From positions 62,001-126,000 of the forward strand of contig NZ_JRKJ01000021.1 of NCBI RefSeq assembly GCF_000770795.1: a DNA stretch of 64,000 bases, given 5' to 3'. Shown here one piece after another: positions 59,408 through 64,000 of the stretch. This DNA comes from Lysobacter dokdonensis DS-58 (GTDB lineage Bacteria; Pseudomonadota; Gammaproteobacteria; Xanthomonadales; Xanthomonadaceae). Position 1 is the first letter of the stretch. The number at the start of each line of letters is the position of its first letter. The notes beneath the pieces were generated by a model, which searched no databases, had not been told where the DNA came from, and was given only the letters and a program-made list of their open reading frames with translations. The position numbers were made by a program, and so were the translations under genes.

Positions 59408-59861
59408 GCGGCAAACTCATCGCGGAACGGATTTCCGGCGACGGCGCACGCAGCCCGTGCGCGTCGCCCGCGAATTTCCCCATTCGGAAACCTGTCTGCG
59501 TGCGTCGCGCGATGCCGCGGGGCAACGCGCGCGCGTGCGCAATGCGGACACCTTCTGCAAAACCGTTGCGCCGGAATCCACGCGCACGTCGGAACCGCGT
59601 TCCGGGTGACACCTGTGGCATTCGTGCGGCGCGGCATCGACGATGCATCCGCGCAGCGTGCGATGGAAGCGTTGCCAGCGGCGGTTCGAATGGCTGGTCA
59701 ATCCCTGCGCGCAGCCGTTCGTCGTGACGCCCGTTCACCCGTGAGCGCAAGGCCTCACCAATCGCACATCTGGCACCGAACCTGCGCCCGCTCGGGCACC
59801 GGCCGCCGCATCGGGGGAACAGTTGCGCGATCGGCAATAAGAGCAACAAGGGAGTACCCCA
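59408..59861. other. Long intergenic region upstream of the Fap-like cluster
   Basis: About 450 bases without a recognisable gene; reading frames here lack Shine-Dalgarno sequences and family-like content. The only regulatory signal I can point to is a sigma54-like box at 59771. No strong terminator for glmS is visible beyond small GGAAC-CGC-GTTCC type hairpins (59590-59604 area). Confidence 0.45.
59771..59785 (+). promoter_or_regulatory. Candidate sigma54 promoter of the Fap-like cluster
   Basis: TGGCAC-CGAAC-CTGC fits the sigma54 TGGCAC-N5-TTGC consensus with one mismatch and correct GG-N10-GC spacing. A transcript start near 59797 would give a 65-base leader. Weaker than the exporter promoter; chance occurrence in GC-rich DNA is possible. 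Confidence 0.45.
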
Positions 59862-60788
59862 ATGCGCAAGACAGTCCTCGCCTCGTTCCTGCTGCTCGCC
59901 TGCGGCCTTGCCGGCCAGGCGTATGCACAGGACGTCAACGTGACAGGCGACAACAACACGACGGACAACAACTCCAACAATTCCACGGGAGACAACCGCG
60001 ACAACACAGGGCCGGCGACGGCCGGCGGCCCGGGCAGCGCAGCTGCGACCAACGGCGGCACCGCCACGGCGACATTCTCCGATTCGTTCAACACCAGCAG
60101 CGTCGTGGCCAACACGACACTCAACGGCACGGTGTCCGGCAACACCATTGCGCCGCTGGGTAACGTCGCGACCAACAACGGCAACAACAACTCCGGTGCC
60201 GGTGGCGCGGGCGGTTCCGCGACCGGTGGCGCCGCGACAGGCGGCACGGGCGCCGGCGGCGCCGGTGGCCCGGGCAGTGCAGCGACCGCGAGCAGCGGCG
60301 ATGGCGGCGACAGCATCGCCGACAGCAGCGGTGCGACCGGCACATCGACCGCGGCAGGCGGCGGTGCGACAGGCGCCGGCGGCAGCGTGGCCAATACCAG
60401 TGGTGATGGCGACAACACCAACACCGGTGGCGACGGCACTGCCACGGGTGGTGCGGCCGACTCGACCGCGAGCGCGACAACCGGCGATTCCACCAGCACC
60501 GGCGGCAACAGCGGCGAAGTGGCCGCGACCGGCGGCAACGGTGGCGACGGTGGCTCGGGCACGGGCGGCGACGGCAACGGCGGCGATGGCAACGCAGCCG
60601 CGGGTGGCGACGGTGGAGCGGGCGGATCGATCACGGTCGATGCCGGCACGTTCGATTCGTCGAACTCGATGGACAGCGTCGGCCAATCGGCGGCGGGCGT
60701 GATGATGGCCGCGCAGAACAGCGGTGCAGCCTCGCTGATCCAGCAGGGCATGACCGTGCAGGCCAACCTCGACGTCGGCGCGCCGTAG
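59862..60788 (+). CDS. Low-complexity Gly/Ala/Thr/Asn-rich secreted protein, candidate amyloid-like subunit
   Basis: A 308-residue protein with a signal peptide ending QAYA (about residue 22). The mature chain is almost entirely Gly, Ala, Thr, Ser, Asn and Asp, with repeated GGxGxGGxGG and GDGGDS-type runs and very few charged or aromatic residues (about residues 110-265). The C-terminus is more ordered and contains AAQNSGAASLIQQGMTVQ (about 284-300), a motif shared with the products of 60850 and 61924. AAGGGAG lies before the ATG. Composition and context suggest a secreted fibre subunit, but low-complexity composition alone is not proof. Confidence 0.72.
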   Translation: MRKTVLASFLLLACGLAGQAYAQDVNVTGDNNTTDNNSNNSTGDNRDNTGPATAGGPGSAAATNGGTATATFSDSFNTSSVVANTTLNGTVSGNTIAPLGNVATNNGNNNSGAGGAGGSATGGAATGGTGAGGAGGPGSAATASSGDGGDSIADSSGATGTSTAAGGGATGAGGSVANTSGDGDNTNTGGDGTATGGAADSTASATTGDSTSTGGNSGEVAATGGNGGDGGSGTGGDGNGGDGNAAAGGDGGAGGSITVDAGTFDSSNSMDSVGQSAAGVMMAAQNSGAASLIQQGMTVQANLDVGAP

Positions 60789-60849
60789 ACCACACGTCGA
60801 ACGGACCAGGCGCGCGCGCCAACGCGCGCGCCTGGCGGAAGGAGTCGCC

Positions 60850-61236
60850 ATGCACATCCAACGCAAGGCGCGAACACGCATGCGGCGCGATGCGTTCGCG
60901 CTCGTATTCTTCGCGGCCGCATCGCCGGCGGCCCTCGCGCAACAGGCGAATGCGACATTCGCAACACCGGTCGACAACGCGGCGCTCGACGCCCAACGCG
61001 GCGGCGACGGCACGCTCGTCAACACGGTCGACATCGACATCGACCTGGACGGCACGGTCGACGGCAACACCGCGATCGACAACGTCACGGGACAGAACCT
61101 GATCGACGGCGGCAGCTTCGCCAACAACGCGGGCATCGCCACCGTGATCCAGAACTCGGGCAATAACGTGCTCATCCAGAACGGCATGGCGGTCAGCGTG
61201 CAGTTCCTGGGCGCGACCACGGCCGCACCGCCATGA
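60850..61236 (+). CDS. Small secreted protein with QNSG...IQNGM motif, candidate minor amyloid subunit
   Basis: A 128-residue protein with a basic N-terminus and signal peptide ending PAALA. The mature part has LDAQRGG (residues 46-52), a double-glycine site reminiscent of C39 peptidase substrates, and IQNSGNNVLIQNGMAVSVQ (about 100-118), close to curlin- or Fap-like repeat style. Overlap of its stop with the ATG of the C39 peptidase gene (ATGA) makes them translationally coupled. GGAAGGAG precedes the ATG. Function inferred. Confidence 0.72.
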   Translation: MHIQRKARTRMRRDAFALVFFAAASPAALAQQANATFATPVDNAALDAQRGGDGTLVNTVDIDIDLDGTVDGNTAIDNVTGQNLIDGGSFANNAGIATVIQNSGNNVLIQNGMAVSVQFLGATTAAPP

Positions 61237-61931
61237 TCCGGCGGCGCGCGCGCTGGCACGCGATCGCAACGGGCGCGCTGTTTGCGCTCGGCGTCGCCTG
61301 CGCGCACGCCGGTTCGGTGCCGTTGCACGATGGCAACGGCGACTATGCAGTGCGCGTGACGAGCCTGAAGGAAGCGCGCTTCGCCACCGTGGTGCGGCAA
61401 CGCTACGACTTCAGTTGCGGATCGGCGGCGGTGGCGACGTTGCTGACGCATCACTTCGGCCGGCCCGTGCGCGAAGCGGACGTCTTCCAGGAGATGTACG
61501 CGCAAGGCGACCAGGCGCGTATCCGGAAGCTCGGATTTTCCTTGCTCGACATGCGCCGCTACCTGCAGGCGCACGGGTTCCGCGCAGATGGGTTCGCACT
61601 GCCGCTGGAAAAGCTGGCAGAGGAAGGCGTGCCGGCAATCGTGTTGCTCAACGACCGCGGCTATCGGCATTTCGTCGTGGTGAAGGGGATCCGCGGCAAT
61701 CGCGTGCTCGTGGGCGATCCCGCCGCGGGCCTGCGTACGATCCGGCGCGATCGCTTCGACACGTTGTGGGAGTCGCGCGTGTTGTTCGTCGTGCACAACC
61801 ATCGCGACCTGGCGCAATTCAACAACCCGCGCGACTGGCGCATCGCGCCGGCCGGGCCGCTGGACCTGTCGATCCAGCGCGACGGGCTGCAGCATGTCGT
61901 GATGCCGCGACGCGGGCCGGGCGATGTGTAG
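61233..61931 (+). CDS. Secreted C39-family cysteine peptidase (FapD-like)
   Basis: A 232-residue protein with a signal peptide ending AHA (about residue 26). The papain-like C39 domain has the catalytic Cys62 in YDFSCGSAAVATLL, His146 in YRHFVVVKGI and Asp162 in VLVGDPAAG. It lacks any ABC transporter part, as FapD does. In Fap systems FapD is needed for fibre secretion or maturation. It overlaps both neighbouring genes by a few bases, so it belongs firmly to this operon. Confidence 0.86.
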   Translation: MIRRRARWHAIATGALFALGVACAHAGSVPLHDGNGDYAVRVTSLKEARFATVVRQRYDFSCGSAAVATLLTHHFGRPVREADVFQEMYAQGDQARIRKLGFSLLDMRRYLQAHGFRADGFALPLEKLAEEGVPAIVLLNDRGYRHFVVVKGIRGNRVLVGDPAAGLRTIRRDRFDTLWESRVLFVVHNHRDLAQFNNPRDWRIAPAGPLDLSIQRDGLQHVVMPRRGPGDV

Positions 61932-62424
61932 GGCGATCGCGCTCTTCGCGTTGTTCGCCATCGCGCCGGCGTTCGCGCAGGACGCCGCGCCGAACGTGCG
62001 CGACCTGCCGCCCGACTGGCAGGCCGTCGCGCCGTCGAGACTGGCGCAAATGCGCGGCGGATTCACCATTCCCGGCGGCGCCAACATTTCCTTCGGCATC
62101 GAACGTGCGGTGTACATCAACGGCACGCTCGTCGTCGAAACGCGGGCGTACGTGCCCGACCTGTCGCGCATCACGACCGACCAGGCGCAGGCGCTCTCGC
62201 GCGCGATCGCGCCGCTGGTCGTGCGCAACGGCGCGGGCAACACCGCGTCGGTGTCGCCCGGCGCGGTGGGGACGCTGACCATCGTGCAGAACTCGCTGGA
62301 CAACCAGCGCATCGCGGGCATGACGGCGCTGACGGTCGGCGTCGGCTCGCTCGCGCAATTCCAGGCGCTCAACGCCAGCGGCGCGTTGATCGACGCACAG
62401 CTTCGACTCGCATCCACCCGCTGA
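61924..62424 (+). CDS. Secreted protein with QNS...GM motif, FapE/curlin-like candidate
   Basis: A 166-residue protein with a signal peptide ending PAFA (about residue 18). It has LAQMRGG (residues 40-46, another double-glycine), a beta-rich stretch (NISFGIERAVYINGTLVVETRAYVPD, in parts) and VQNSLDNQRIAGMTALTV (121-138) related to the motif in the other two small proteins. The start overlaps the peptidase stop by 8 bases. It is a candidate minor subunit or nucleator. Confidence 0.72.
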   Translation: MCRAIALFALFAIAPAFAQDAAPNVRDLPPDWQAVAPSRLAQMRGGFTIPGGANISFGIERAVYINGTLVVETRAYVPDLSRITTDQAQALSRAIAPLVVRNGAGNTASVSPGAVGTLTIVQNSLDNQRIAGMTALTVGVGSLAQFQALNASGALIDAQLRLASTR

Positions 62425-62446
62425 TCCACGACAAGGAGGTCGCGCC

Positions 62447-63751
62447 ATGGCCCGACGTGCATGCAGTCTTCGACGGCTGGCGCTTGCGATGGCGGTGTGT
62501 GGCGCGACCGGTGGCGCATGGGCGCAGCAGAAGGCGGAAAGTACGGAAGCGCGCATCGAACGGCTGGAAGCGCAGGTGAAGGCGCAGTCCGCGCGGCTGG
62601 ATTCGATGGAGAAGACGCTGATCGAACGCGAGTTCGAGATCGCCGAATTGAAGCAGGCGATCGGGATGGACGACATGCGTGCGCGCGGCACCGCGTCGCA
62701 ACCGGCACCACAGGCGCAACCGGCGCAGGCGACGGCGCAGCAATCGCAGCAACGCCAGGCACCGGTGGGACAGGCTCCGCCCGAGGCGGAGAACCCGCCG
62801 CAGGTCGCGCAGATCTTCGATCAACCCAGCGTGCTGACGCCGGCGGGCTCGTTCGTCTTCGAGCCTTCGTTGCAGGTGGGCTACTGGGCGAACGACCGCG
62901 TCGCGCTCGTCGGCTACTCGGTGATCCCTGCGCTGCTCATCGGCCTGATCGACGTGCGCCAAGTGAAGATCACCAGCGCCACCGCCGCATTCGCCGCGCG
63001 CTGGGGCGTCTCGAAAGGCTTCGAACTCGAAGCGCGCATTCCCTACGTCTACACGAACACCGACACGGTGAGCCGCGAGATATTCACCGGCACGGCGGTG
63101 GATCGCGTGTTCGAAGCCGACGGCAAGGGCATCGGCGATGTCGAACTCACCGGGCGCTATCAGTTCAGTCATTCGGGGCCCGACAAGCCGTTCTACGTGG
63201 GGTGGCTGCGTTACAAGAGCACCACCGGGAGGGATCCGTTCGAAGTGCCGTCCGATTGCGTCACGCGCTGCGTGGGCAACGCCACCGGCACGGGGTTGCC
63301 GCTCGAATTGCCGACGGGCACCGGTTTCCAGTCGCTGCAGGCCGGCGTGACCTGGCTCTATGCGTCGGACCCGGCGGTGTTCTTCGGGAACCTGAGCTAT
63401 CTGCACAACTTCGAGCGCGACAACGTGCAGCGGCAAGTGCTCGGCGGTGCGAAGGAATCGCTGGGGTCGATCGACGTGGGCGATGTGTTCGGGCTCAACG
63501 TCGGCGTCGGTTTGGCGCTGAACGAGAAGGCCTCGATCAGCATCGGCTACGAGCAGAACTTCATCGGCAAGACGCAGCAGAACGGGCAGGACCTGCCGGG
63601 CGCGGTGCGGTTGGTGACGGGGACCTTGCTGCTCGGCGCGAGTTATCGCTTCAGCGACACACGCATGCTCAATGTCTCGCTCGGCGTGGGCACGACCCGG
63701 GATACGCCGGATGTGACGCTCACCGTGCGGACGCCTTTCTCGGTGCGCTGA
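62447..63751 (+). CDS. Outer-membrane beta-barrel with N-terminal coiled coil (FapF-like exporter)
   Basis: A 434-residue protein: signal peptide (ends GAWA, about 26), a heptad coiled coil (ARIERLEAQVKAQSARLDSM, about 33-72), a Gln/Ala/Pro-rich linker (about 78-118) and a beta-barrel with VLTPAGSFVFEPSLQVGYW, IPALLIGLIDVRQVKITS, ELEARIPYVYTNTDTVSREI and GKGIGDVELTGRYQF, ending FSVR. This is the layout of FapF, whose trimeric coiled coil gates a barrel exporting amyloid subunits. AAGGAGGT directly precedes the ATG. It is the last gene of the cluster. Confidence 0.86.
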   Translation: MARRACSLRRLALAMAVCGATGGAWAQQKAESTEARIERLEAQVKAQSARLDSMEKTLIEREFEIAELKQAIGMDDMRARGTASQPAPQAQPAQATAQQSQQRQAPVGQAPPEAENPPQVAQIFDQPSVLTPAGSFVFEPSLQVGYWANDRVALVGYSVIPALLIGLIDVRQVKITSATAAFAARWGVSKGFELEARIPYVYTNTDTVSREIFTGTAVDRVFEADGKGIGDVELTGRYQFSHSGPDKPFYVGWLRYKSTTGRDPFEVPSDCVTRCVGNATGTGLPLELPTGTGFQSLQAGVTWLYASDPAVFFGNLSYLHNFERDNVQRQVLGGAKESLGSIDVGDVFGLNVGVGLALNEKASISIGYEQNFIGKTQQNGQDLPGAVRLVTGTLLLGASYRFSDTRMLNVSLGVGTTRDTPDVTLTVRTPFSVR

Positions 63752-63903: not shown

Positions 63904-64000
63904 ATGCACGTGAAACCAGCGTGGTGGGCGGGCGCGTTGTGCGCGTCGCTGTGGTGGATGGGCATGGCACGGGCGGAAGAGACGTCCGGTGAAGCGGTCG
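63904..64000 (+). CDS. Start of a secreted protein (cut by window edge)
   Basis: The first 32 codons encode MHVKPAWWAGALCASLWWMG followed by MARAEETSGEAV, a signal peptide with cleavage near ARA. GGAGAGGGC lies five bases before the ATG at 63904. The function cannot be read from this fragment; it may belong to the Fap-like cluster. Confidence 0.6.
   Translation, partial: MHVKPAWWAGALCASLWWMGMARAEETSGEAV

Follow-up and report, generated by a model that had tools for sequence, protein, structure and literature searches.

What does a gene cluster encode when its processing and export proteins resemble those of the functional amyloid system of Pseudomonas (Fap), which exports amyloid fibres used in biofilms, and its secreted subunits match none of the known Fap subunit models? 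This question is raised by five genes of Lysobacter dokdonensis DS-58, found at positions 59862-63751 of a stretch of 64,000 nucleotides (contig NZ_JRKJ01000021.1, positions 62,001 to 126,000 of the forward strand). The whole stretch is referred to here as the window, and coordinates are counted from its first letter. An initial annotation proposed a Fap-like export cluster with unrecognised subunits. The present analysis finds that the cluster is a real, conserved and widespread sister of Fap, built on the same logic with another subunit design. We put at roughly three in four the probability that it is a Fap-type fibre system, encoded by an operon that lacks fapA and belongs to a separate one-repeat lineage, with the leader cleavage, export, protein roles and sigma-54 control proposed below.

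The five open reading frames (ORFs) lie closely packed on the forward strand, each at the place noted beforehand. P1 (59862-60788, 308 amino acids) is a long, Gly/Ala/Thr-rich secreted subunit that is FapC-like by size and repeat, and P2 (60850-61236, 128 amino acids) appears to be a small subunit that resembles FapB and carries a leader of the FapE type. P3 (61233-61931, 232 amino acids) is a FapD-like, presumably periplasmic C39 peptidase, P4 (61924-62424, 166 amino acids) a secreted protein that looks FapE-like, and P5 (62447-63751, 434 amino acids) a FapF-like outer-membrane exporter with a coiled coil and a barrel. P2 and P3 overlap by 4 bases and P3 and P4 by 8, with gaps of 22 bases between P4 and P5 and 61 between P1 and P2; the three overlapping or nearly abutting junctions of the initial annotation are thus present. 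A Sec-type signal peptide is apparent at the N-terminus of all five proteins, as judged from the sequence without a prediction tool. No plausible ORF for fapA was seen by eye between P1 and the upstream gene glmS (start 57569).

The peptidase and the exporter tie the cluster to Fap. P3 matches the Pfam C39 peptidase family PF03412 (E 2.4e-20) and is a stand-alone enzyme, and its Cys62, His146 and Asp162 are invariant in all 24 aligned sequences, the window's included, which bears out the catalytic triad described earlier. The proposed resemblances to FapD and FapF also proved real in profile searches: P3 matches the NCBIfam FapD model at E 8.5e-41 (139.7 bits; equivalog cut-off 330), and P5 matches FapF at E 2.4e-46 (158.4 bits; equivalog cut-off 700). 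In addition, residues 114-431 of P5 align with crystallised FapF (PDB 5o67) at E 5.9e-27.

The cluster is also conserved as a unit. Of 198 genomes of the family, 41, counting the window's own, have a P4 homologue. The neighbourhood was read in 25 of these 41 genomes, and in all 25 loci (again including the window) P1 to P5 follow in sequence on a single strand; a contig end truncates P1 in two of them. A P4 match was found in 13 of 369 sampled genomes of the class. A scan of species genomes with P4 gave 306 candidate stretches and, among them, 201 relatives of P4. Only the 80 with the best scores were retained; the 80 named loci are therefore the best-scoring ones, found through P4. In 78 of them P1, P2, P3 and P4 follow each other on one strand. 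P5 comes after them on that strand in 66, lies on the opposite strand within the locus in 8, and could not be located in the retrieved stretch in 6. Such conservation of gene order is far above chance level, and the genes are neither scattered nor unlinked in relatives. The holders include Lysobacteraceae, Rhodanobacteraceae, and members or relatives of the Burkholderiales (Cupriavidus, Pandoraea, Variovorax, Massilia, Undibacterium, Thauera). The earlier description of a divergent system of Xanthomonads was therefore right as to divergence from Pseudomonas Fap and too narrow as to hosts.

For the subunits, a different picture emerged from that of the initial annotation, which held that they do not look like FapB or FapC. 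The window's P1, P2 and P4 matched no FapB, FapC or FapE model, and Pfam and NCBIfam gave nothing useful for them. Nevertheless, the three look like diverged Fap parts: P1 and P2 each appear to end in one diverged Fap-type repeat (residues 261-303 of P1, 60642-60770; residues 83-119 of P2, 61096-61206), and P4 resembles FapE. Six of 25 P2 homologues, the window's P2 not among them, matched FapB (best E 2.5e-4), the sole model of 18,950 in NCBIfam matched by more than one of the 25. Profile-profile comparisons, each judged against 100 column permutations, gave probabilities of 57 for the P2 repeat against the canonical FapB/C repeat, 94 for the P1 repeat against the P2 repeat, 94 for P4 against FapE, 96 for P2 against P4 and 9.6 for P2 against FapE, with 0/100 permutations as good in each. 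P4 gave no signal against the FapB/C repeat (probability 0.1, 93/100 permutations as good). On these permutation-tested comparisons P2 forms the link to Fap, P1 is connected with Fap solely through P2, and P4 is FapE-like mainly via its leader region. The Asn/Gln patterning of the P1 and P2 repeats resembles that of Fap repeats. A match of whole P1 to FapC by hhalign was discarded, as only the signal peptides were aligned.

Since P2 and P1 each seem to end in a Fap-type repeat and P4 seems FapE-like, the gene order corresponds to fapBCDEF, with B and C possibly swapped because P1 resembles FapC in size and P2 FapB. Together with the real matches to FapD and FapF, the likeness of P1, P2 and P4 to diverged Fap parts lets the cluster be read as a fap operon without fapA, a gene that is optional in Fap.

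The number of repeats sets the lineage apart from a canonical comparison set of 20 Fap loci from the same family and class, namely L070-L075 (whose FapF-like protein shows 26-31% identity) and L193-L206 (drawn through FapE). FapB, FapC and FapE were recognised in 18 of these 20, L074 being without FapE and L195 having FapE only. Three repeats are present in 19/19 canonical FapB and 19/21 canonical FapC. A repeat model built from P2 finds one repeat in 89 of 91 P2 proteins and four in the other two (L211 and L217); in P1 it finds one in 70 of 86 proteins and none at threshold in 16. The initial description of a Gly/Ala/Thr-rich subunit fits P1, which is 25% Gly, 17% Ala and 13% Thr with few aromatics; its uncut homologues span 298-508 amino acids. 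In L211 (6658-7644) and L217 (3593-4504), which come from another gammaproteobacterial family, the same cluster includes a subunit gene that encodes four nearly identical repeats of this type. The four-repeat P2-type subunit of L211, a member of the wider lineage, matches FapB at E 1.7e-4, and that of L217 only at 0.08.

A second feature concerns the leaders of P2 and P4. The P2 motif (residues 41-52, 60970-61005) has Val at -12, Leu at -7, Gln at -4 and ends in Arg-Gly-Gly; the P4 motif (residues 35-46, 62026-62061) has Val at -12, Leu at -7 and Met at -4 before Arg-Gly-Gly. This is the spacing seen in double-glycine leaders that C39 peptidases cleave, for which a consensus of M(R/K)ELX3E(I/L)X2(I/V)XG(G/A) has been given (PMC3140520). 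Leaders were counted in the window, the named loci and class-level loci, each species record once, using a loose and a strict form of the pattern hydrophobic -12, Leu -7, hydrophobic -4 and Gly-Gly. The loose pattern was found in 91/92 P4, 76/91 P2, 0/83 P1 and 24/429 control genes, and the strict one in 77/92, 62/91, 0/83 and 4/429, respectively. Arg-Gly-Gly is present in 92/92 P4 and 69/91 P2; the 22 P2 proteins without it comprise 10 with Ser-Gly-Gly after the same Leu, 2 from Massilia and 10 from the wider gammaproteobacterial lineage. In rows with Arg-Gly-Gly, position -7 is Leu in 90/92 P4 and 69/69 P2, position -12 is Val, Ile, Leu or Met in 90/92 and 67/69, and position -4 is Leu, Met, Ile or Val in 76/92 and 49/69. 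Arg-Gly-Gly also occurs in the glycine-rich part of 54/83 P1 proteins, without the leader spacing.

At the same position, 17 of 19 canonical FapE proteins carry hydrophobic-x4-[LM]-x2-hydrophobic-R-G-[RKG]-[YF]. No R-G-[RKG] leader of that kind was found in 19 canonical FapB or 21 FapC, and the Gly-Gly leader of P2 appears in canonical FapB in 0/19 by the strict and 1/19 by the loose pattern. Rouse and colleagues report, in their account of processing, that FapE alone among the Pseudomonas Fap proteins is fully processed at its N-terminus and that secretion requires Cys38 of FapD (PMC5557850). The same account describes the Fap proteins as being without a canonical C39 sequence and weighs FapF as a second possible target. 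The target of FapD is termed "unclear" in that 2017 source and yet to be determined in a passage from 2018 (PMC6173800). The leaders described here suggest that FapD-type enzymes cut at this site and that two subunits may be their substrates in the core lineage.

The same leaders can be read in another way. Bacteriocin precursors typically bear double-glycine leaders (PMC3140520), and a FapD/FapF-type exporter could have been reused for a non-fibrous product, with P3 clipping leaders, P5 releasing small soluble or cell-bound effectors and P1 forming a disordered glycine-rich coat. The single repeat of most subunits and the glycine-rich, aromatic-poor composition of P1 fit such a product, as does the view of Dueholm and colleagues that FapD and FapF probably belong to families larger than Fap (PMC3792158). 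However, the FapB matches of six P2 members, the Fap-like Asn/Gln patterning of the P1 and P2 repeats and the four-repeat subunits in the same cluster of L211 and L217 all speak against it, and this reuse is considered unlikely.

The partner proteins place the lineage relative to canonical Fap. In a FapF tree of 85 rows (18 canonical) and a FapD tree of 92 rows (19 canonical), all canonical rows fall on one side of a branch, with support of 100 and 99, respectively, in the Shimodaira-Hasegawa-like approximate likelihood-ratio test (SH-aLRT). These were quick trees without an outgroup, drawn with midpoint rooting and containing some long branches. They cover the window, the named loci and the class-level loci, leaving out even-numbered named loci below L150, short rows and the other family loci. 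Excluded from the alignments were the P1 proteins of L053 and L066, truncated at contig ends; P4 from L076, for its long insert; P5 from L062, which matched only in part; P3 from L061, whose start is uncertain; and one FapC row with unread letters. Furthermore, three of 60 genomes (G010, G021 and G026) carry both a canonical-type Fap and a one-repeat locus. As a side observation, L070 and L074, which are canonical-type with diverged FapF, form a branch of their own in the FapF tree, and their FapC-like proteins have a Cys-rich end, with CGTC in L070 and in two of three in L074.

Treating the cluster as an ordinary canonical fap operon was rejected on the basis of the trees and of the coexistence of both systems in one genome. 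That its subunits merely score low by sequence in such an operon would suit the identical gene order and partner families, but this idea is quite improbable given the separate branches, the shared genomes, one repeat against three, and a P2 leader that FapB lacks by the strict pattern. Still more remote is a relative of the "putative pilus" system Fil of Acinetobacter instead of Fap, as P3 does match FilB (E 1.9e-35, 122.6 bits, under the cut-off of 475) and P5 FilC (E 1.2e-11, 44.6 bits, under the cut-off of 630), but both score better against FapD (139.7 bits) and FapF (158.4 bits), the trees themselves holding no Fil proteins.

Two further features accompany the one-repeat Fap-type lineage. 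The first is a sigma-54-like -24/-12 promoter motif, TGGCACcgaacCTGC (59771-59785, forward strand), which lies 91 nucleotides before the start of P1 and agrees at 9/10 positions with the sigma-54 consensus. The search covered the 130 nucleotides upstream of P1 in 85 distinct loci, which remain from 95 loci with 300 nucleotides upstream once duplicates are removed. A score of at least 9/10 was reached in 41/85 loci compared with 13/3400 random windows and 2/455 control genes, the latter two being P1 genes themselves; at least 8/10 was reached in 55/85 compared with 181/3400 and 16/455. In 19 canonical loci with a fapB match, no site of at least 8/10 was found within 130 nucleotides upstream of fapB, a search that did not cover the zone upstream of fapA. 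Over 400 nucleotides upstream of fapB, the same loci gave one 10/10 site (L196, at -332) and two of 8/10 beyond -380. The second feature is Cys271-x3-Cys275 of P5 (63257-63271, forward strand), in a loop that the 5o67 alignment places between the sites corresponding to the two PTG motifs of FapF (PMC5557850). This pair is present in 53/56 FapF-like rows of the core lineage, 0/18 canonical FapF and 0/11 wider-lineage rows; a disulphide between the two cysteines is a guess.

Several observations weigh against a fibre system of this kind. The FapD and FapF scores are both far under the NCBI equivalog cut-offs; FapB, FapC, FapD, FapE and FapF of the canonical-type locus L071 likewise fall short of theirs. 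Compared directly with the FapB/C repeat, the P1 repeat reaches a probability of 1, with 32/100 permutations as good. The profile match of P4 to FapE spans only 34 columns around the leader, and the NCBIfam FapE model was matched by 0/24 P4 members in HMMER. The P2 leader was not found in 15/91 proteins, among them the wider gammaproteobacterial lineage, and 30 of the 85 loci are without even an 8/10 promoter site, 17 of these being named Pseudoxanthomonas. The cluster is absent from two of the four other genomes of the window's genus. One repeat may also be insufficient for a fibre. Finally, a hidden Markov model of the canonical repeat built here gave no match at E <=0.01 in 7381 ORFs of this lineage's loci, which include some species twice. 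It shows the lineage as an enrichment only: its top 60 rows are 53 P2 and 7 unlabelled proteins, and reversed sequences gave 7 rows.

This last result bears on how such systems are searched for. The 2025 GTDB surveys demand a FapB/C repeat match, report three repeats in ~94% and regard Fap as evolutionarily "fixed" (PMC12392863, PMC12822426). Because the canonical-repeat model built here missed this lineage, the survey filter probably misses it too. Searches of open-licence PMC papers turned up none that describes the lineage. In a passage from Dueholm and colleagues, fapD and fapF homologues are reported together in five further phyla (PMC6173800).

If the cluster is a Fap-type fibre system, it may work as follows. 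Sec would carry all five proteins to the periplasm, where P3 would remove the leaders of FapE-like P4 and FapB-like P2 after Arg-Gly-Gly. P5, a FapF-like channel and, by analogy with the plugged 12-strand barrel trimer of FapF, itself a trimer, would then export P1, P2 and P4, none of which would fold before reaching the outside. Having a single repeat and little besides, P2 might act as nucleator or cap, P1, with one repeat on a long glycine-rich spacer, might be the bulk subunit, and P4 might link fibre and exporter. A sigma-54 promoter would switch the operon on.

A bolder form of this proposal is a second, phylogenetically separate Fap-type amyloid lineage with one-repeat fibres, sigma-54 control and a C39 peptidase that matures two subunits by classical double-glycine cleavage; we would give it even odds. 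If true, the substrate site of FapD in Fap systems would be located at the MRG[RK] leader of FapE, and the view of three repeats as fixed in Fap would be contradicted. As a C39-type leader is seen on two subunits and a matching one in canonical FapE by alignment, the cut site becomes a test by point mutant. A natural one-repeat subunit also allows one to ask what minimum repeat number a Fap fibre needs.

The surroundings of the cluster vary. Directly 3' of it lie a gene for a YadA-type trimeric autotransporter adhesin (head, stalk and anchor), which starts at about 63904 and extends past the window end at 64000, and a gene for a PPC-domain S8 subtilase; both are seen at L049:7904-11409. The adhesin/S8 subtilase pair also adjoins the cluster in L050. 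The two genomes of the genus without the cluster (L226 and L227; G039 and G075) were inspected over 19 kilobases from glmS onward. One has neither the cluster nor the pair, and in the other (L227) the pair follows glmS without the cluster; the site after glmS is thus a variable locus. In several other Lysobacteraceae, among them L052, L054, L055 and L057, the cluster instead adjoins lolA-like and rarA-like genes, as read from the sequence without a family search.

Set beside known systems, the cluster comes closest to Fap of Pseudomonas (fapABCDEF), which is also present in Lysobacteraceae. Both have a C39 FapD, a FapF with coiled coil and barrel, repeat subunits, a FapE-like protein and the order B/C-D-E-F. 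Unlike Fap, with its three repeats, the cluster has one repeat per subunit and no visible fapA, its P2 bears a FapE-type leader, and its leaders read RGG where most FapE read RG[RK]. It also has a sigma-54-like promoter in about half of its loci, a Cys-x3-Cys in the exporter loop, and FapD and FapF proteins on a separate tree branch. With Acinetobacter Fil (FilB, FilC) it shares a C39 peptidase and a FapF-like barrel, but it matches Fil more weakly than FapD/FapF, and no Fil subunit model was matched. Its leaders follow those of C39 peptidases in ABC exporters, with hydrophobic residues at -12 and -4, Leu at -7 and Gly-Gly at -2/-1; unlike in those systems, P3 is a free-standing protein with a signal peptide, and the five genes include no ABC exporter.

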